From assembly GCA_017546245.1 (NCBI GenBank), contig JAFYXI010000071.1:1-64000 (forward strand): 64,000 nt of DNA, given 5' to 3'. Origin of the DNA: Clostridia bacterium (lineage in GTDB: Bacteria > Bacillota > Clostridia > UBA1381 > UBA9506). Within the stretch, counting starts at the first letter, position 1; each line of letters begins with the position of its first letter. The notes beneath the pieces are model-generated. The model saw only the letters and a list, made by a program, of their open reading frames with translations. It was not told the DNA's origin and made no database searches. A program made the position numbers and the translations under genes. This document shows, piece after piece, positions 3,484-35,571 of this stretch.

Positions 3484-3516
3484 AAAAAGCCGTCCTCTAA
3501 ATAAATCAGAGGACGG
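3484..3516 (-). terminator. T-box terminator hairpin
   Basis: Read on the minus strand, a perfect 9-bp stem CCGTCCTCT/AGAGGACGG with a 9-base loop is followed by a run of T. It directly follows the T-box sequence, and its 5' arm overlaps the segment that would pair in the antiterminator. Confidence 0.85.
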
Positions 3517-3762
3517 AAAAAATCCGTGTTACCACCTCAGTTTACAAGCTCCTCACGGAGACCTGCCTCGACAAGTAGCATAAGATACTGAAACTCTTAT
3601 AGTACTCTGCGCTGTTACGGGCACACCCGTCAAAGGTTACTGTTATTTCTCCTTTGCAGCTCCCGGACTGTATTCGGACTATTTCAAGACCCCGGCTCGC
3701 ACCACCCGCCGTTTCTCTGTGCTCCATTCATAGCCTTACTTGTTTCCGTTCCTAGCCTTTAC
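3484..3762 (-). promoter_or_regulatory. T-box leader (tRNA-sensing riboswitch)
   Basis: The minus strand between promoter and symporter has the features of a T-box leader: a Stem I region with an AGAGA element and a GGTGGTGCGAGCC distal-loop-like segment (about 3725-3690), the T-box core AGGTGGTAACACGG at 3536-3523, and then an intrinsic terminator. A candidate specifier is UAC (tyrosine) in the context CCGAAUACAGUCC around 3675; this register is a guess because the AUA in the nearby GAAAUAG could also be argued. The established mechanism is that uncharged cognate tRNA stabilises the antiterminator and allows transcription of the genes downstream. The controlled genes are the symporter and probably the CoA ligase. 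Confidence 0.85.
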
Positions 3763-3905: not shown

Positions 3906-4172
3906 ATGGCAAGAAAAAAATACAAGCTTTTAACCTATGAGGACAGAAAGAAGCTTGAAGAAATGTACTTGAACAACGAACGCCCTTCGGACATCGCCGA
4001 CAAATTGGGCGTTCACACGGCTACAATTTACAAAGAATTGCAGCGCGGCGACACGGGAACGCTTGACAAGAACTTGCGTTCCGAATATAGCGCCGAACTT
4101 GCACAGCGCAAAACAACCGAAAGTTTAAAGAACCGCGGCCGCAACCTTGAAGAAGCGGCAGCCAATGCGTAA
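3906..4172 (+). CDS. Small HTH protein related to the IS30 transposase DNA-binding domain
   Basis: An 88-residue basic protein that is almost entirely one helix-turn-helix domain (HTH_38 type) of the kind at the N-terminus of IS30 transposases. It aligns over most of its length with the first 80 residues of the phage's own transposase at 34540: compare LTYEDRKKLEEMY...DIADKLGVHTATIYKELQRG with FTRDDRLKLEAYI...EIAGLLHKHISSIYREIGRG. It has no catalytic domain. RBS GGAGGTG lies 9 bases before the ATG. As the first gene inside the left end it is well placed to bind the ends or the early promoter. A regulator or repressor role is inferred by analogy with phage Mu, whose repressor shares a DNA-binding domain with its transposase. 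Confidence 0.75.
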   Translation: MARKKYKLLTYEDRKKLEEMYLNNERPSDIADKLGVHTATIYKELQRGDTGTLDKNLRSEYSAELAQRKTTESLKNRGRNLEEAAANA

Positions 4173-7285: not shown

Positions 7286-8059
7286 ATGATACGCGAAAAA
7301 AATATAATATCGGGCGCGATGTATGAAGCGGAGTTTTACCCGGTATTCCCCAACGGCCGACGTATGCCGCAGAGAAAACCGAAAAGCCGTCCGACATCAA
7401 AGGAACAAGCGAACCTTAACGACAAGAACGCCCGAAAAAAAATCGTCCGTTTGGTAAATGCAAACTTTGGTAAAGGTGATATTGTTATACACGGCACATA
7501 TTGCGACAGCGAAATGCCTTCTTCCGAAGAACAATGCCGCAAGGATATTCAAAACTACATACGCAGGATAAAGCGGTACAGAGAAAAGCAGGGCTTGCCC
7601 GAAATGAAATACATATACGTCATTGAAGCGAAGGTAAGTAAAAAAACGGGCCTTGTTCGGTATCATTTTCATATGATTACTAACGCAATGGATAGAGATA
7701 CAGCCGAAGAAATGTGGCCTTTTGGTGATTGGACGAACGCTGACAGATTACAACCCAACGAAAAAGGGTGCGAAGCTTTGGCGAAATATCTTGTTAAGAA
7801 GCCCGAAGGCGGCAAACGTTGGGCGCAATCCCGAAATTTAGATAAGCCAAAAGAACCAAAACCCAAAGACGGTAAAATTTCAAAGCGCCATTTACAGCGC
7901 CTTGCAACTGAACACATAGACGACGCGCCTTATTGGGAAAAGCGTTACAAGGGTTATCGCTTTATCGAAGCGGCCGCGCGATACAATGAATATAACGGGC
8001 ATTGGTATTTGTCCGTCGTGATGTTCAAGAAAAACGAAACGGAGGTAATGCGAAAATGA
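7286..8059 (+). CDS. HUH-type Rep (replication initiator)
   Basis: 257 residues. The central HUH motif is H127-F-H129 in VRYHFHM. The motif III tyrosine is Y168 in YLVK, matching the YxxK pattern of rolling-circle Reps. Proteins of this type nick one DNA strand and stay bound to the 5' end through the tyrosine, which starts rolling-circle-like replication. The N-terminal 55 residues are basic and probably bind DNA. RBS AGGTGA precedes the ATG. It follows a hairpin-rich non-coding region and its stop overlaps the next ATG as ATGA. A tailed phage with such a Rep instead of the usual helicase-loader set recalls the gpA strategy of P2. Confidence 0.78.
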   Translation: MIREKNIISGAMYEAEFYPVFPNGRRMPQRKPKSRPTSKEQANLNDKNARKKIVRLVNANFGKGDIVIHGTYCDSEMPSSEEQCRKDIQNYIRRIKRYREKQGLPEMKYIYVIEAKVSKKTGLVRYHFHMITNAMDRDTAEEMWPFGDWTNADRLQPNEKGCEALAKYLVKKPEGGKRWAQSRNLDKPKEPKPKDGKISKRHLQRLATEHIDDAPYWEKRYKGYRFIEAAARYNEYNGHWYLSVVMFKKNETEVMRK

Positions 8060-8568: not shown

Positions 8569-8945
8569 GTTATAAACCATACGTTCACGAAAACGTCGAA
8601 CAAACTTGCCTTTTTAGGTGGGCGGCTTATGAACAAGGCAAATACCCCGAATTGAATTTGCTTTATCATATCCCGAACGGCGGCAGCCGCAACAAATACG
8701 AAGCGGCCAACTTGAAGCGGCAGGGCGTAAAAGCGGGCGTACCCGATTTATGTTTGCCCGTCGCCCGCGGAAAATACCACGGCTTGTATATCGAAATGAA
8801 AGCAGGAAAAAACACGCCTTCCAACCTTCAAAAAGATTGGTTGAAGGCACTTAACGAACAAGGCTTCCTTGCTGTTGTCTGCTATGGTTGGGAAAAGGCT
8901 TCGGAAGTCTTAATACAATACCTTGAAGGGAGGATTGACGAATGA
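8565..8945 (+). CDS. VRR-NUC domain nuclease
   Basis: 126 residues from the overlapping ATG at 8565; the frame extends upstream but only as a shadow. It has the VRR-NUC (PD-(D/E)xK superfamily) pattern: an N-terminal E (NVEQ), the core GVKAGVPDLCLPVARGKYHGLYIEMKAG, in which the D of VPD and the ExK of EMK supply the metal site, and a Q downstream (LQKDW). Phage VRR-NUC proteins are structure-specific DNA nucleases, used in replication or recombination. It lies in the replication module behind Rep. Confidence 0.85.
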   Translation: MSYKPYVHENVEQTCLFRWAAYEQGKYPELNLLYHIPNGGSRNKYEAANLKRQGVKAGVPDLCLPVARGKYHGLYIEMKAGKNTPSNLQKDWLKALNEQGFLAVVCYGWEKASEVLIQYLEGRIDE

Positions 8946-9856
8946 ACTATATTGCATTTTTATTTACGGCCGCTTCAATCGTGGGAACACTTGCAAACAG
9001 TTTTCAAAAAAAGTGGTGCTTTTATATATGGCTTTGCACTAATTCTTTTTGGTGTATATATAACACCATTAACGCGCAGTATGCGCAAGCCTTGCTTTAT
9101 GTCTTTAATTTGGCAACGTGTATTATAGGCCTTTACAAATGGCGAAGGCCCGTTCAAATAGCGGCCGACCTTTCAAACGGACACGATAAAGGCTGTATTG
9201 TGGAATATCGAAAAACAAAAAACGGTATAGATGTTTTGTCGTGCAAATATGACGACGGAGCGGCAACCGACACAGAAAACAACGCTACATTGCGCGGCGA
9301 CGATTTAAAAGAATTGGTTTTGCCGCCTTTGCGCCGCTGTAAGCATTGCGGGAAAACGGGTGTATATTACGGTGAAAATTTCGGCGGCGGTGCTTCTATG
9401 CGGGCAGAAGCTATTATAAAACATCATAACGCGGACGGCGAAGAAATTTTCTTATGCCAAAATTGCCATTTAAAAGCACACGAAATAAAACCACACGCAG
9501 CCGACGGCTTCCGCGCTGACGTTGCAATAATAGACGAACCAAAGGAAGCCGAAAAACCTTCGGAGGAAATCGAAGACCCATATACAAGAATGTCAAAGGC
9601 TTTTGACGTTTTTAAAACGGCGGTTATAGATGCAGTACGCCCAATGCTCGAAGCGCATATCGACGCATTTTTCAAGTTTCCAAAAACATTTCGCGGCGGC
9701 GTTTATGAATTCTTGAAATGGCAAGACAACGCCACAGACCCGCGCTTGCTACATAGAGCATATAACGCGAAACGATACAGAACGCGCAAAAAGAACCTTG
9801 CGCGCCTACATCGTGAATATAAAAAATATATCAAGAAAGGCGGCGGCAGAAAGTGA
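8942..9856 (+). CDS. Membrane/zinc-ribbon fusion protein (PnuC-like N-terminus)
   Basis: 304 residues. Residues 1-70 contain two to three hydrophobic segments that look like the short PnuC-like membrane proteins of phages (FQKKWCFYIWLCTNSFWCIYN...ALLYVFNLATCIIGLYKW). The middle has a two-pair cysteine site, CKHC (~residues 132-135) and CQNC (~173-176), suggesting a zinc ribbon. The C-terminus (~250-304) is very basic. I read this as a fusion of two modules often encoded separately; the function is not known. Start ATG overlaps the nuclease stop as ATGA. Confidence 0.6.
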   Translation: MNYIAFLFTAASIVGTLANSFQKKWCFYIWLCTNSFWCIYNTINAQYAQALLYVFNLATCIIGLYKWRRPVQIAADLSNGHDKGCIVEYRKTKNGIDVLSCKYDDGAATDTENNATLRGDDLKELVLPPLRRCKHCGKTGVYYGENFGGGASMRAEAIIKHHNADGEEIFLCQNCHLKAHEIKPHAADGFRADVAIIDEPKEAEKPSEEIEDPYTRMSKAFDVFKTAVIDAVRPMLEAHIDAFFKFPKTFRGGVYEFLKWQDNATDPRLLHRAYNAKRYRTRKKNLARLHREYKKYIKKGGGRK

Positions 9857-10329
9857 AGAAAGATTTTACAAGAGATTATGCAACAGAAGCTTTTCGGCTT
9901 TATGCTGCTATGGGTAAGCCGTCGTATGAAGAAGCCACAAAGCAGATATACGAAGCGGCCTTGAATGATTGCGAATTCAAAGACCCCGAAATCGCCAATA
10001 TATCAGCCGAAGCAGCGGTAAACAATGCAACGCCGCTTTTGCTTGATATTCTCGCGGTCGAAAAAACTATTGACATTTTGGAGCGGGGCAACAAAACACA
10101 TATTGCCCGCGCTATATCCGACGTTTACTTCGTGCAGCCCGAACAGCCATTGCGCCGCGGCGACATTACCGCGCGCGTGCGTCGCTATTCCCTTACGGCT
10201 TTTGCAAGTGAACGCAATGTTTATTTATGGCTTAAAGAAGCCCGCTTATTATTCGCGGCCGTCCGTGGCCTACGTATAGCGGAAGCCGACGCAAATAAAT
10301 ATAAAGTTTGCAGTAGTAGCGTATTGTAA
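9853..10329 (+). CDS. Probable phage transcriptional regulator or packaging-related protein
   Basis: 158 residues starting at GTG that overlaps the upstream stop (GTGA). It is alpha-helical, and the region RRYSLTAFASERNVYLWLKEARLLFAAVRGL resembles the C-terminal helix-turn-helix of late regulators of the ArpU/RinA kind. Such a gene is usual just before the HNH/terminase block of Firmicutes siphophages. The assignment rests on position and general appearance and is tentative. Confidence 0.45.
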   Translation: MKKDFTRDYATEAFRLYAAMGKPSYEEATKQIYEAALNDCEFKDPEIANISAEAAVNNATPLLLDILAVEKTIDILERGNKTHIARAISDVYFVQPEQPLRRGDITARVRRYSLTAFASERNVYLWLKEARLLFAAVRGLRIAEADANKYKVCSSSVL

Positions 10330-25550: not shown

Positions 25551-27173
25551 ATGGCGCAATTAGATATAATAAACGTTACGTACAAAGAATTTACAATCGA
25601 AGTAACAGACTTGCAGTACACGGGCGACAACTACGATAAATTTGTTTTTAAAATATATCAAGGAAGCAGAAAAATAATTGAATGGGTCGAAAGTGATACT
25701 TCTTGGATAACCACAGTAAATTTTACTTTCGAATTTTCGAACTCTGTTTACGCGGGGTATAATTGGCTATCCCCCAACAACACATATGTAGCGGAAGTAA
25801 CTTGTTATTATGACGGCGTGGGTTATACACTAAACAACGTTACGTTTTCTACGGATAGCATTTCGCCGCCAACGGGGACGATAACCCCTTCGGTTTATGT
25901 TCCTATACGCAATCAAGTGTACGGCTCTTGTGTTGCTAATTGTTTAGCTTGCGGAATGGAAATATTTAAAGCAAAACAAACGGGCATAAAATACGAAAAA
26001 TTCAGCGAAGCATATATATTCGGCAGCGATGGCACAAATTACGATTATATGACATTTGAAGAAGCGGTCGATAATTGCATAACATACGGGTCGCCGCGTT
26101 ATGAAATATATTCGGGTTTTTACCCGGACGAAATGCCAAAAGCAACAGCGGTAAATATGTTTAATTCGGCAGATAGCATCGTGAACACAAACGCCCAAAA
26201 GCAAAAATTGCGAAATAAAAGGCATATTGATTTTTACGATTGTTCTTCTGTGAAAAGTTGCATTGAAACTTACGGGTTTTATATGCTGAATTTTCGTATT
26301 CCGAACAACTTTCAAACCAACAGCAGCGGAATAATACCGCAGCCCACAACATACCGCGGCGACAATCACGCAATCGCTCTTATTGGACTAACACAAATAA
26401 GCGGTAAAGCTTATTGGATAGCTCAAAACAGTTGGGGCGAAGATTGGGGGTTAAATGGAAGATGTTATATCCCTTACGATTGGGGGTGCGGTTGTCAATC
26501 GCCCATTACAAGCGATTACGGCGAACCTACTTCGTGGACGCTTGATTGTTATTCTGTTGCGCCGGGAAGTGGATATACAGACAGCAACCCAACAAAACCG
26601 TACAATATAAAAGTACAACAAATTGAAACGGAAAAAAACGTAAGCATATCTTGGGACTGCTCCACTTCTTCGTGTAATTTTGTAATACTTGCAAAGCAAT
26701 ATAATACGAACCGTTGGTATAGAAAAGCTTATACATCAAATAAAAACGCCATAATTTCGCTTGATACATACGGAACATATGATTTTGCCGTAATTGCAAT
26801 TTATAACGGCTATTGCTCGGAAATAAGCGACACCGAAAGAGTTTCCACGTCCGAAAACAAACGACCCGATAATTATTATTGGAGTTACGAAAAACGTCAA
26901 AATGAAGAAATCAAATTAACGGCTTCCGAATGGAACGGACTTACTTCAAGAATAAATGAATTTCGACAATACACTTCAAACGGAAGCTTGGGAAATTACA
27001 ATTTTGACACAGCAATCGACGGAAACGACTTTACGGCCGTAATGTACAATCAATGTCGCGAAGCAATGCAAGATATGGAATACGGAAGCTATATTCCTTA
27101 TGTTTATAAAAGTGAAGATGTAACCGCTTATATGATAAATGTTCTTATAAGCGAATTGAACGTAATACCGTAA
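25551..27173 (+). CDS. Tail protein with a papain-family (C1) cysteine peptidase domain
   Basis: 540 residues in three parts. Residues 1-~110 are an N-terminal beta domain. Residues ~115-335 form a papain-like domain with the full catalytic set: Q122 (oxyanion hole, RNQVYGSC), C127 (nucleophile), H273 (GDNHAIALIGL) and N293 in NSWGEDWG. Residues ~345-435 look like a fibronectin type III domain, followed by a ~100-residue C-terminal part. There is no signal peptide, and the gene sits between tail tip and receptor-binding genes, so the enzyme is probably carried on the virion. The target could be a surface protein of the host, or the phage's own tail proteins. RBS: a weak AAGGCGGTG. Confidence 0.85.
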   Translation: MAQLDIINVTYKEFTIEVTDLQYTGDNYDKFVFKIYQGSRKIIEWVESDTSWITTVNFTFEFSNSVYAGYNWLSPNNTYVAEVTCYYDGVGYTLNNVTFSTDSISPPTGTITPSVYVPIRNQVYGSCVANCLACGMEIFKAKQTGIKYEKFSEAYIFGSDGTNYDYMTFEEAVDNCITYGSPRYEIYSGFYPDEMPKATAVNMFNSADSIVNTNAQKQKLRNKRHIDFYDCSSVKSCIETYGFYMLNFRIPNNFQTNSSGIIPQPTTYRGDNHAIALIGLTQISGKAYWIAQNSWGEDWGLNGRCYIPYDWGCGCQSPITSDYGEPTSWTLDCYSVAPGSGYTDSNPTKPYNIKVQQIETEKNVSISWDCSTSSCNFVILAKQYNTNRWYRKAYTSNKNAIISLDTYGTYDFAVIAIYNGYCSEISDTERVSTSENKRPDNYYWSYEKRQNEEIKLTASEWNGLTSRINEFRQYTSNGSLGNYNFDTAIDGNDFTAVMYNQCREAMQDMEYGSYIPYVYKSEDVTAYMINVLISELNVIP

Positions 27174-27531: not shown

Positions 27532-29832
27532 ATGGAATTCATAAAGGAAATTACCGTCGAATTATCGGGCGAAATGCTTTTTGAATACATAACAGCGGTT
27601 CAAAGCGATGTCGGCCGAAAAATAAAAGTAATTTTGCTTGCGAATAATCAGCCTTACGAAATCCCCGCAGGGGCAACGGCTGTTCTTCGTGGCAAGAAGC
27701 CCGACGGCAAAGCAATTCTTAATAATTGCACCATAGACGAAAACGGGGCAATTATTGCGGAACTTACAAAACAGACCCTTGCCGTATGCGGCAATGTTCG
27801 TTGTCAAATTACGCTTTATTCTTCCGAAGGCGGCGAATTAACAAGCGTTCCTTTCGTTGTAAAGGTAACAGCCAAAAGCGCCAACGATACAGAAGTAAAA
27901 AGCACCAATGAATTTAACGTAATCGCCGAAGCGGAAGCGCTCGCACAATCAGCCCGCGAAATAGCTTCCGAAGCTTTGGAAAATGTTTCGGAGGTTGAAG
28001 CAAGGGTTGAAGCGTCAACACTTGCGGCCGATGAAGCGGCAGCGACAGCCATTGAAGCAGCTTCCGACGTAAATGTCGTAAAAGAAGCAGCGGCAGCCGT
28101 TACCATTGAAGCCAACGACGCAGCAGAAGCGGCAAACCTTGCGAAAGAAAATGCAGACACGGCCACTTCAAACGCTGAAAAAGCAACTTCGGCAGCAAAT
28201 ACAGCCGCAGGAGCAGCAAGCGGCGCAGCCAATGCAGCGAACACGGCCGCCGACAATGCAAATTCTGCAAAGGAAGCAACCGAAAAGGCAACAGAAGAAG
28301 CCGCAGCAGCAACCGAAGCTGCTAACACAGCAACCGAAGCCGCGCAGACCGCGACGGCCGAAGCGGAAGCGGCAACAACAGCCGCCAAAGAAGCAGCGGC
28401 AGCGGCCGAAAATGCGCTTGCAGAAATTGAAGGTTCAACCGTTACCCGTTACGGCGTTAAATTCGGCGGCAGCGCAAACAGCGGCGCAACCGTTCAAAGA
28501 TTATACAACGCCTTCGGCCTTGTTGCAAATGTCGGCACAGACGCAGCAACAGCAACAAACGATTTCGACAATATTTACCCGTGGAGCGGAAGGAAACGTG
28601 CTTGCGGATATTTCGACGACAACGGAAATTTTGTTGTAAATGCTTATGAAGGCGAACCCGGCTACGTTACCGACGGCAGCAACGGCGAAGTATGGGTTGA
28701 AACACCTTTATTCTATTATCTGCATACATACAACGACGACGGCAGCGAAGAAATCGTAATTTCGGCGCACCCGATAGGCGGTTACAAGCCTTCACCGATA
28801 CACATTAACGCAGACGGAAGCTTGCGACAGAAAGCATACACCGCCGCTTATCCTATGGCGTTAGTTGATGATAAGCCAACTTCCCGAAGCGGCGTATATA
28901 CGCCGATTATGTCGTTAAATTCGGGTATGACAAACGCCCGTAAGCTTGGCGACAAGTACACAACGACCACAGCGGCCGAACAGTATGTAAAATGCCTTCT
29001 TATGTGGGTTGAATTCGCGACACGCGACATTCAAACAAAAATGAAGGGTTGTTCCTCACTTTCATACAGCGAAAGCCACAAAGCAACCGTTGCGGAGGAC
29101 GCAGCCAACCGCATTATAATTTCAAGCAGCTATGCGGCGGCGTACGTTATCGGTCAAGGTATCGCAATAGGAACATCTCTCGGAAGTACAAACGTCGCAA
29201 ACAATAGAACAGTTACCGCGATAGATGCTTTCGACGACAGCAACAGCGCAATTACATTCGACGGCGACCCCGTAAATATAGCGGTTGGAAATATCGTCTT
29301 TGCGATTGCGTGGAAGACGGGTTCTTGCGATAATGTTTTATCTTCTTCGGGTTCGCCCGTTTCCAATACAAACGGTAAATATACTTGTATATACCGCGGC
29401 GAAGAAACACCGTTCGGAAATGCTTTCGAATGGATTTCCGACGTACTTTTCAAGAGAGAGGGCAGCGGCACGACCGAAGACCCATACAAATATGATATTT
29501 ACTTCTTGCCCGACGCTACCAAATACAGCAGCGGCAACATCACGGACGATTATGTGAAAGTAAATTATCAGTTACCGACGGCCGAAGGATATGTCAAAAA
29601 GCTTGGTTATGATGAACGCTTCCCGTTTGTTCGTATTCCTTGCGAAATTGGAGCTTCGACAACAACGTATTATGCCGATTATTATTATCGCCCGGCTTAC
29701 GCAGTAACCGCGGCGGGTGTCGGCGGCATTTGGTACAATGGGGCTTATTGCGGGCCGTGTTATTGGTATTGCTGCCTTGCGCCTTCGGTTACGCATATCT
29801 ATCGCCGCGCGCGTCTTTCTTACCGCCGTTAA
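27532..29832 (+). CDS. Receptor-binding tail protein, target of the diversity-generating retroelement
   Basis: 766 residues. Residues 1-~115 match the N-terminal domain of baseplate upper protein (BppU), which anchors it to the tail. Residues ~120-300 are an alanine-rich coiled coil (repeated AA-heptads), which gives a trimeric fibre shaft. Residues ~300-766 form the head; its end has the C-type-lectin/FGE-like pattern usual for retroelement targets (PFGNAFEWISDV ... GGIWYNGAYCGPCYWYC). The last 40 residues are the variable region; the residues that vary from the template are 726, 729, 733, 735, 739, 746, 748, 749, 753, 755 and 757. It probably determines which host surface is bound. Confidence 0.9.
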   Translation: MEFIKEITVELSGEMLFEYITAVQSDVGRKIKVILLANNQPYEIPAGATAVLRGKKPDGKAILNNCTIDENGAIIAELTKQTLAVCGNVRCQITLYSSEGGELTSVPFVVKVTAKSANDTEVKSTNEFNVIAEAEALAQSAREIASEALENVSEVEARVEASTLAADEAAATAIEAASDVNVVKEAAAAVTIEANDAAEAANLAKENADTATSNAEKATSAANTAAGAASGAANAANTAADNANSAKEATEKATEEAAAATEAANTATEAAQTATAEAEAATTAAKEAAAAAENALAEIEGSTVTRYGVKFGGSANSGATVQRLYNAFGLVANVGTDAATATNDFDNIYPWSGRKRACGYFDDNGNFVVNAYEGEPGYVTDGSNGEVWVETPLFYYLHTYNDDGSEEIVISAHPIGGYKPSPIHINADGSLRQKAYTAAYPMALVDDKPTSRSGVYTPIMSLNSGMTNARKLGDKYTTTTAAEQYVKCLLMWVEFATRDIQTKMKGCSSLSYSESHKATVAEDAANRIIISSSYAAAYVIGQGIAIGTSLGSTNVANNRTVTAIDAFDDSNSAITFDGDPVNIAVGNIVFAIAWKTGSCDNVLSSSGSPVSNTNGKYTCIYRGEETPFGNAFEWISDVLFKREGSGTTEDPYKYDIYFLPDATKYSSGNITDDYVKVNYQLPTAEGYVKKLGYDERFPFVRIPCEIGASTTTYYADYYYRPAYAVTAAGVGGIWYNGAYCGPCYWYCCLAPSVTHIYRRARLSYRR
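29707..29822 (+). repeat. Variable repeat (VR) of the retroelement
   Basis: 116 bp at the 3' end of the target gene, aligned without gaps to the template repeat at offset 174. It differs at 16 positions, all adenine in the template; none of the 87 non-adenine template positions differ. Eleven codons that read AAC/AAT in the template are changed. The 3' end is GC-rich (CGCCGCGCGCGTCT) as in initiation-of-mutagenic-homology sequences. Confidence 0.95.
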
Positions 29833-29842
29833 AACGGGGGTT

Positions 29843-29861
29843 TGGGGGCGGGCAGCCCCCA
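29843..29861 (+). promoter_or_regulatory. Hairpin downstream of the VR
   Basis: Perfect 7-bp stem TGGGGGC/GCCCCCA with a 5-base loop, 20 bp after the VR and 10 bp after the target gene stop. A hairpin or cruciform at this place is known to promote target recognition in retroelements such as that of Bordetella phage BPP-1. It has no T-run, so it is not a typical terminator. Confidence 0.7.
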
Positions 29862-29879
29862 TATAGGGATTTAACACGC

Positions 29880-29996
29880 AAACGCGGCGAATGTCGGCGG
29901 CAATTGGAACAATGGGGCTAATTGCGGGCCGTGTTATTGGAATTGCAACAATGCGCCTTCGAATACGAATATCAATCGCCGCGCGCGTCTATCTTA
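29880..29996 (+). repeat. Template repeat (TR) of the retroelement
   Basis: Non-coding template, 58 bp downstream of the VR and 111 bp upstream of the RT start. In the VR reading register it contains twelve AAC/AAT codons at the positions that vary. Adenine-specific error-prone copying by the RT makes cDNA that replaces the VR. Confidence 0.95.
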
Positions 29997-30107
29997 ATAC
30001 ATTCATCGCGTGTTATTTCCCTTGCCGCTTGGCAAAAATACATCGCTACGGGCGGGGTTAGTAAGAAATTGAAAGCCTTGCAGATAATTAAGAAAGAAGC
30101 TGAACCG

Positions 30108-31175
30108 ATGAAAAGAGCGGGAAACCTATTTGAAAAAATATGCGATATTGATAATATACACGAAGCTATCATAAACGCAGCCCGCGGGAAGAAAAGCCGA
30201 AGGACGGTTGCTTATGTTTTGGAAAATCAAGACAAGGCCGCAGGACTTATACGGGATATGCTTATAAATAAAACGTATAAACCGAAGCCGTACCGAACCT
30301 TCGTAATAAAAGACGGGCCACGTCAAAAGGAACGTACAATATTTTGTCCCGCCTACTACCCCGACCAAATTATACATTGGGCTTTAATGCAAGTGCTGCA
30401 GCCCGTTATAATGAAGGGTATGTATGAATTTTGTTGCGGAAGCATACCGGGCCGCGGCGTACATTACGGGAAACGGTATCTTGAAAAGTGGTTACGCAAA
30501 GACAGAAAGTATACAAAATATTGCTTAAAGTTGGATATAAAGAAATATTATCCACACATTGACAACGAAGTATTAAAAGAACAATTCCGAAGGAAAATCA
30601 AAGACCCGTCGGCATTGTGGCTTATTGATTGCATTATCGACAGCCACGCCGAAGGTTTACCAATCGGCAATTATACTTCGCAATGGTGGGCGAATTTCTA
30701 CTTGCAGGGTTTAGACCACTATATCAAGGAAGAATTGCGCATAAAACATTATCTTCGTTATATGGACGATATGGCGTTATTTTCTAACAATAAGAAGCAG
30801 TTACACAAAGCGCGAAAACTTATCGCGGAATATATAAAGCCTTTGGGCTTAACCTTAAAAGAAAATTGGCAAGTGTTCCGCGTCGATGAACGCCCGGTTG
30901 ATTTCTTGGGCTTCCGCTTCTATCGAAATAAAACAACATTACGGCGCAAGAATTCTTTAAGAATACGCCGCCGGGTGAAGCGGGCTTCCAAAAAGCCGAA
31001 GCCGTCGTTGTCGGACGCACGCGCAATATTAAGTTATATGGGTTGGATAAAACACAGTAATTCATATTACTTTTATTGCAAATACATAAAACCATATGTA
31101 AATATAAAGCAATTAAAGGAGGTTGTAAGCTATGCAAGCAGAAAGCACAATAAAGCCGAAATCGTATTATGTTGA
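30108..31175 (+). CDS. Reverse transcriptase of a diversity-generating retroelement
   Basis: 355 residues from the ATG at 30108; the frame is open from 29922, but that part lies within the template repeat. RT motifs include the catalytic D143 (LKLDIKKYYPHID), the diagnostic GNYTSQ (S191-Q192) of retroelement RTs, and the YMDD box (218-221). There is a final thumb-like basic region. Size is typical. It copies the TR RNA with misincorporation at adenines. No accessory Avd gene lies before or after it. The ribosome binding site is poor (AAAGAAG), so the level may be low. The gene overlaps the next gene by 44 bp. Confidence 0.95.
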   Translation: MKRAGNLFEKICDIDNIHEAIINAARGKKSRRTVAYVLENQDKAAGLIRDMLINKTYKPKPYRTFVIKDGPRQKERTIFCPAYYPDQIIHWALMQVLQPVIMKGMYEFCCGSIPGRGVHYGKRYLEKWLRKDRKYTKYCLKLDIKKYYPHIDNEVLKEQFRRKIKDPSALWLIDCIIDSHAEGLPIGNYTSQWWANFYLQGLDHYIKEELRIKHYLRYMDDMALFSNNKKQLHKARKLIAEYIKPLGLTLKENWQVFRVDERPVDFLGFRFYRNKTTLRRKNSLRIRRRVKRASKKPKPSLSDARAILSYMGWIKHSNSYYFYCKYIKPYVNIKQLKEVVSYASRKHNKAEIVLC

Positions 31176-34539: not shown

Positions 34540-35571
34540 ATGCGTAATTTCAAACATTTTACACGCGACGACAGATTAAAGCTTGAAGCGTATATAAGAG
34601 CAGGAAAAACACCGCGCGAAATTGCGGGGCTTCTTCATAAGCATATTTCTTCTATATATAGGGAAATCGGCCGCGGCCGCTATGAGCATAAAAACAGCGA
34701 TTGGACGTTTGAAGAAAGATACAGCCCGGACATCGCCGAAGAAAAATACCGCGCCAACCTTGCCGCCAAAGGCGCAGACCTTAAAATCGGCGCAGATTTG
34801 GAATTCTCGCAGTATATAGAAGATAGAATAATAAACGACAAATATTCCCCCGCTGCTGTTTTGGGTGAAATCAAAGCGGAAGGGCTTGTTTTTGATACAA
34901 CTATTTCCGTAAGCACTTTATACAGCTATATTGAAAAAGGGATATTCCTTCACTTAACAAATAAAAATTTGCCCGTAAAAGGCAAAAAGAAAAAGCGCCA
35001 CTATAACAGAGTTAAGCAGAAGCGCCGCAGCGCGGGCGAAAGTATCGAAAACAGACCCGCGGAAATATTAACGCGTGAAGAATTCGGCCATTGGGAAATG
35101 GATTGCGTCGAAGGTGCAAAGAGAAGCCGTAAAACCCTTCTTATGTTATCGGAGCGGAAGACGCGCGACGAAATTGTTATACCTATAAAAGCAAAGACAG
35201 CCGAAAACGTCGTTGCAGCGCTTGACGCTTTGGAAAAGAATTGGCGAAATCTTTTCCCGCTTGTATTCAAATCAATTACAGTTGATAACGGTTCGGAGTT
35301 TTCCGACGTTGAAGGTATGGAAAAATCTATTTTCGGAGGAAAGCGCACACAATTTTATTATTGCCACGCTTACAGTAGTTGGGAACGTGGAACAAATGAG
35401 AATATAAACAAAATGGCGCGCCGCCATTATCCGAAGGGAACTAATTTTGAAAAGTACCCGGACGAAGAATTATTAAAGCTTAATGAATGGATAAACAATT
35501 ACCCGCGCGGGATATTTGGTTATCGCTGTTCGGCTGAATTATTCAACAATGAAATAGCGGCGCTTTTGTAG
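34540..35571 (+). CDS. IS30-family DDE transposase (apparent phage recombinase)
   Basis: 343 residues. The N-terminal HTH (~5-45) has LKLEAYIRAGKTPREIAGLLHKHISSIYREIGRG, followed by a second DNA-binding region and the DDE core: D188 (GHWEMDCVEG), D249 (ITVDNGSEFSD) and E287 in the IS30 signature GTNEN-INKMARRHYPKGTNF. The length is typical for IS30 (about 320-390). It has RBS AAAGGAGGAAT. It sits 32 bp from the right inverted repeat. No separate IS ends flank it on its own: the only matched repeats are at the prophage ends, so it appears to belong to the phage. It would mobilise the whole 31.8-kb unit. Confidence 0.9.
   Translation: MRNFKHFTRDDRLKLEAYIRAGKTPREIAGLLHKHISSIYREIGRGRYEHKNSDWTFEERYSPDIAEEKYRANLAAKGADLKIGADLEFSQYIEDRIINDKYSPAAVLGEIKAEGLVFDTTISVSTLYSYIEKGIFLHLTNKNLPVKGKKKKRHYNRVKQKRRSAGESIENRPAEILTREEFGHWEMDCVEGAKRSRKTLLMLSERKTRDEIVIPIKAKTAENVVAALDALEKNWRNLFPLVFKSITVDNGSEFSDVEGMEKSIFGGKRTQFYYCHAYSSWERGTNENINKMARRHYPKGTNFEKYPDEELLKLNEWINNYPRGIFGYRCSAELFNNEIAALL

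Follow-up and report, generated by a model that had tools for sequence, protein, structure and literature searches.

Is the reverse transcriptase gene just downstream of a phage tail fibre gene in a Clostridia bacterium part of a working diversity-generating retroelement (DGR), and if so, what does the variation that it introduces change? We addressed this question in a window of 64,000 nucleotides (positions 1 to 64,000 of contig JAFYXI010000071.1), where the original prediction had placed a DGR aimed at a receptor-binding protein. We are highly confident that the locus is a functional, recently active avd-less DGR with the order target-VR-TR-RT, carried by a temperate tailed phage. This reading is based on the repeats, the RT family, the hairpin, the IMH/IMH* pair, the spacer RNA, and the recurrence of this layout in about 45 relatives. 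Two close copies were compared with the window: L003 (IMG/VR contig 3300032167_003072) and L058 (MAG contig JAGAKI010000076.1). The cassette comprises the following features:

27532-29832, plus strand: DGR target, a 766-aa tail fibre and candidate receptor-binding protein (Pfam, PHROG, AF2, and TaqVP match)
29707-29822, plus strand: VR, from the ungapped repeat alignment (5' extension possible to 29706)
29803-29822, plus strand: IMH, GC-rich CGCCGCGCGCGTCT followed by TTCTTA; 29817 is T, fixed in VRs, and A in TR
29843-29861, plus strand: hairpin/cruciform 3' of VR, TGGGGGC-GGGCA-GCCCCCA, with a 7-bp GC stem and a 5-nt loop
29881-29996, plus strand: TR, from the ungapped repeat alignment (5' extension possible to 29880)
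30023-30095, plus strand: RT-18 RNA (Rfam RF03021; 58.3 bits, gathering threshold 41.3), putative 3' structured spacer of the template RNA
30108-31175, plus strand: DGR reverse transcriptase, 355 aa (PHROG 1423, bRT 8ub7, SQ motif, YMDD)

When we realigned the repeats, VR and TR matched over 116 bp without gaps at an offset of 174, with 16 mismatches (nine A>T, four A>G, and three A>C) that all fall on TR adenines. None of the 87 other TR bases differs, and recomputation thus reproduced what had been claimed for the repeat pair. If mismatches were placed at random, the chance that 16 out of 16 would hit the 29 adenine columns is 3.9e-12; a TR/VR pair that differs solely at TR adenines is what characterizes a DGR. 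The repeat can be extended by one base at its 5' end (29706/29880, an A) to 117 bp with 30 adenines, and column 29706 varies among natural VRs. The VR lies in frame within the target ORF, at the 3' end of a gene whose product has a C-type-lectin-like fold as in other DGRs; 7 nt separate it from the stop codon. In the frame of the VR, the TR contains 12 AAY codons as well as TAT, ACG, and ATC codons, and substitutions of their adenines never give a stop; we computed that the TR adenines allow about 8.3e15 theoretical protein variants. A search of the whole genome found no additional VRs of this element.

Not all of the 16 mismatches are likely to be products of mutagenesis. All VRs checked in the close clade have T at position 29817, whereas the TR retains A, and an IMH/IMH* mark is therefore the better reading of this column. 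The count of 16 adenine mismatches in the original prediction stands, but it is better divided into 15 mutagenic changes and one A>T that is probably a fixed difference. The VR thus ends in an IMH and the TR in a non-identical IMH*, as in DGRs, with the T/A pair at 29817 constant across the clade. A GC-rich hairpin follows the VR. Phage VRs have been reported to be followed by GC stems of 7-10 bp with 4-nt GRNA loops, both of which matter (Guo et al., PMC3240598). The window stem fits this description, but its loop has 5 nt and departs from the GRNA consensus; this loop, GGNCA, is conserved in the clade, and in one relative (L009) the stem is preserved through a C-G to T-A change. A scan of IMG/VR for the exact IMH pattern gave no matches, as the L003 record in that database is broken into two pieces inside its VR.

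The reverse transcriptase belongs to the DGR clade, with SQ in motif 4. Its sequence contains the GNYTSQ and YMDD boxes named in the original prediction (the former as GLPIGNYTSQ), its profile match is PHROG 1423 (E 9.8e-120), and the BPP-1 reverse transcriptase (bRT) 8ub7 (E 3.8e-33) is its best hit in the PDB. It also carries residues that align with bRT R74 and I181, positions that we take to be those linked to adenine infidelity in published work. The closest named RTs are those of Lactobacillus phage LBR48 (52%) and Butyrivibrio phage Arawn (47%), and VR, TR, and RT occur in this order in about 45 related loci. The mechanically called RT ORF begins inside the TR (29922). We rejected an RT extended upstream through the TR from TTG 29922 because ATG 30108 is where the alignment with its relatives and with the BPP-1 bRT N-terminus begins; this ATG is the likely start.

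Between TR and RT, the window carries an RT-18 RNA, and Rfam detects RT-17 or RT-18 at this place in 26 out of 34 related DGR loci. Rfam names both families as RT RNAs and gives them no function beyond the name. At the corresponding place, BPP-1 has the Phage_DGR RNA (RF03022); in that phage, bRT-Avd is recruited by the spacer, which also primes the synthesis of cDNA (PMC12875486). By analogy, RT-17 and RT-18 are probably DGR template-RNA domains, the same functional part as the BPP-1 spacer in other RT clades, and both families would thereby gain a probable function. An RNAalifold model of the spacer had modest covariation support and was superseded by the RT-18 match. The spacer of Faecalibacterium phage Lagaffe had no match in Rfam.

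The cassette contains no avd gene of the kind found in BPP-1-type, Avd-dependent DGRs. The bAvd profile had no match in this genome and none above the cut-off in 18 records with relatives of this RT, the complete LBR48 and Arawn records included, while it detected both positive controls, BPP-1 and Lagaffe (20 records in all). A two-sequence Avd HMM run over the relatives found none in this clade, and a Pfam search of the genome found no Avd at the cassette. The four proteins of the genome with the Avd-like four-helix domain PF05635 are all on other contigs, from where they may act in trans. BPP-1 cannot do without Avd (PMC12875486), but some DGRs are known to lack it, and about a quarter of DGRs have no accessory homologues (PMC7290462). 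Since avd-less DGRs of the same layout have already been described (PMC7290462), the window holds a known kind of system; its order of target, TR, and RT without avd is that of the avd-less lineage 3 DGRs, to which it may belong. In contrast to BPP-1 with its essential Avd, this clade has no recognisable Avd and shows clear evidence of recent activity.

Comparison with known systems agrees with this placement. The DGR of crAssphage LMMB, assigned to lineage 3 of Wu et al. in PMC7290462, likewise has the order target-VR(IMH)-TR(IMH*)-RT, no avd, and a tail-collar fibre as its target; its RT was retrieved with the window RT as query (37.5% identity), although it belongs to another phage group and host. 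The BPP-1 DGR (mtd-avd-TR-brt) has in common with the window adenine-specific transfer from TR to VR, an IMH, a hairpin, an SQ-motif RT, and a structured spacer RNA. It differs in having Avd between target and TR, another spacer RNA family, and 4-nt GRNA loops where the window has 5 nt. LBR48 resembles the window in having an RT-18 RNA before the RT, and neither LBR48 nor Arawn has bAvd; the RT cassettes of both are annotated merely as reverse transcriptase. The annotated integrase of LBR48 is not known to be of the IS30 type, unlike that of the window.

We propose that a transcript of the TR and the downstream RT-18 RNA would be bound by the RT through this structured spacer, and that the RT would misincorporate opposite template adenines during cDNA synthesis. 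The IMH and the hairpin directly after the VR would then direct replacement of the VR by the mutated cDNA. The outcome would be a C-type-lectin-like tip with up to 15 varied codons on a BppU-anchored fibre, which probably tunes the surface that the phage binds, presumably through receptor binding.

The target protein can be divided into three parts:

aa 19-135: BppU_N (Pfam E 1.7e-11)
about aa 145-300: Ala-rich stalk (coiled coil read by eye)
about aa 300-766: C-terminal variable domain (AF2 mean pLDDT 92.8)

The protein matches PHROG tail protein families. For the C-terminal 467 aa, we built an AF2 model on an alignment of 29 relatives. The best PDB match of this domain is the DGR variable protein TaqVP of Thermus aquaticus (5vf4; Foldseek E 3.6e-9, profile E 7.5e-17, TM 0.40-0.48); the two are about 14% identical, and TaqVP is not a BppU-anchored fibre. 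Mtd also appeared as a weak match, and the viral matches were tail collar fibres. With the confident model and these matches, there is good support for the prediction that the fibre is anchored in the baseplate and ends in a lectin-like tip. The model and the TaqVP match bear out the lectin-like end with the VR at its C-terminus that had been claimed; of the claimed BppU-anchored coiled-coil fibre, the anchor was confirmed, while the coiled coil was judged by eye only. We found no paper on the combination of BppU and a DGR in the literature searched. Variation of phage fibres by DGRs is a familiar phenomenon, and the cassette itself is ordinary.

The prophage lies in a MAG contig of a gut-type bacterium and spans about 3.82-35.63 kb, with ends at about 3818 and 35629. 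One gene marks its right end:

34540-35571: IS30-family transposase (HTH_38 and rve)

No integrase other than this transposase was identified in the prophage. Its nearest named relative is that of Lagaffe (57% identical), a phage reported (PMC5883640) to combine an IS30 transposase with direct repeats at its flanks and a DGR. Lagaffe thus shares with the window prophage an IS30-family transposase as integrase, direct repeats, and a DGR. Unlike the window, Lagaffe has a DGR with Avd and an RT that is only distantly related, and its baseplate genes are of the P2 type, whereas the window tail genes are of the prophage endopeptidase-tail/BppU type. The three copies have an identical right-end base followed by different flanking sequence, and the window and L058 copies, for which both ends are known, have different flanking direct repeats of about 17-20 bp each. 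Over most of its length, the L058 prophage (G095:C66; L085, L086) is about 92-98% identical in nucleotides to window positions 3823-35629. The bacteria around these two copies are far apart. PheS on the L058 contig shares about 40% identity with that of the window genome and its three genus mates; the aldolase on the window contig is 87-98% identical to those of its genus mates and 45-49% to that of the L058 genome; and the corresponding values for RNase P RNA are 92-99% versus 68%. As judged from these sequences, the hosts that one phage species lysogenises appear to extend well beyond a single genus. A chimeric contig would undo this reading, but the presence of direct repeats at both junctions speaks against one. 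We estimate the gap between the hosts as one of family or order. Two distantly related hosts that harbour one phage with different VRs amount to a natural experiment; three VRs are too few to say whether the VR is the cause of the host difference.

Several other features of the prophage were observed. Its left end lies just upstream of a promoter-like sequence preceding a T-box leader (3506-3762, minus strand), and the left flank of L058 has a similar TATTGACAAAT box. A small HTH_38 protein is encoded at the left end (3906-4172). At 7286-8059, this tailed prophage encodes a replication protein of the REP_ORF2-G2P type, a type associated with filamentous phages. The gene just upstream of the target (25551-27173) differs between copies: it encodes a papain-like Peptidase_C1 in the window, its counterpart is a DUF2927 protein in L003 (72-1790), and that in L058 (663-2108) has no Pfam match; the window and L003 proteins have a C-terminal domain in common (35%).

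By analogy with Mtd of BPP-1, and given the position and fold of the variable tip, we infer that the VR alters host recognition, as the original prediction held. The DGR could instead work as described while the variation of its target serves attachment to mucus, to particles, or to other phages instead of to the host receptor; a role in environmental binding has been proposed for DGR-varied phage proteins (PMC11792537, PMC5883640), and receptor binding is only a candidate function of the window fibre. We consider this unlikely, since the fibre has a BppU-type baseplate domain and sits in the tail module ahead of the holin and endolysin, a location that fits a receptor-binding protein, and since this phage carries different VRs in its two very different hosts.

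It is also conceivable that the DGR has decayed, so that the VR was diversified formerly and the window copy is now inert. A prophage in a MAG, in a clade without recognisable Avd, would be consistent with such decay, but the RT is open with all its motifs, and the TR, spacer, and hairpin are intact. Moreover, the TR, spacer, and hairpin are 99-100% conserved in two copies whose VRs differ at 16-21 of the 29 A columns. Between the window and L003, divergence is 0% in the spacers, 0.9% in the TR, and 0.9% in the RT, versus 18% in the VR; for L058 the values are 0%, 0.9%, 1.0%, and 14.5%. A-column differences between VRs number 21/29 (window and L003), 16/29 (window and L058), and 21/29 (the remaining pair), and all VR/TR mismatches fall on TR adenines in L003 (14/14) and L058 (19/19). 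The variation restricted to template-adenine columns that the original prediction expected in population reads was thus found in three assembled copies rather than in reads, with a variable VR and a constant TR as in DGRs. It had also named VR changes at non-adenine columns as evidence against a DGR; the sole such difference (1 of 88 columns) tracks a TR polymorphism at 29971, which is A in the window and G in L003 and L058. Each VR has the base of its own TR at this column, and information therefore flows from TR to VR. The RT codon differences between the window and L003 (eight synonymous and two nonsynonymous) fit a maintained gene. Taken together, these sequence comparisons support recent activity of the DGR of this phage and make decay very improbable. 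An ordinary tandem duplication diverged by general mutation or recombination would have the typical 174 bp spacing, but we give it practically no credence, since it is refuted by the placement of all mismatches on A columns (P ~4e-12), a rule that holds in the three copies and dozens of relatives.

With the locus read as an active avd-less DGR, its interest lies in the host-jump comparison and the assignment of RT-17 and RT-18 rather than in the DGR as such. We tentatively suggest, as a possibility that we hold to be somewhat less than even, that this is an IS30-type transposable tailed phage with hosts across families or orders, in which an Avd-free DGR with RT-18 retunes the fibre tip with each host jump while the neighbouring tail enzyme gene is swapped wholesale, and that RT-17 and RT-18 serve this avd-less clade as its template-RNA handles.

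In addition, we noticed other DGR loci. The same genome has a second DGR (G000:C45; L055), with an RT at 8660-9781 on the minus strand, adenine-only repeats at 9892-10006 and 10086-10200, an RT-17 RNA, and a target ORF of just about 100 aa; lysis genes lie close to pnuC and pheS, and the locus looks like what remains of a prophage. Among the relatives, extra TR-like copies lie in the interval from the end of the target gene to the TR (L004:4594-4712, L065:953-1050, and L059:4296-4724). In L004, most differences between this copy and the TR are at adenines, and the copy carries an IMH of the VR type, with no hairpin downstream.
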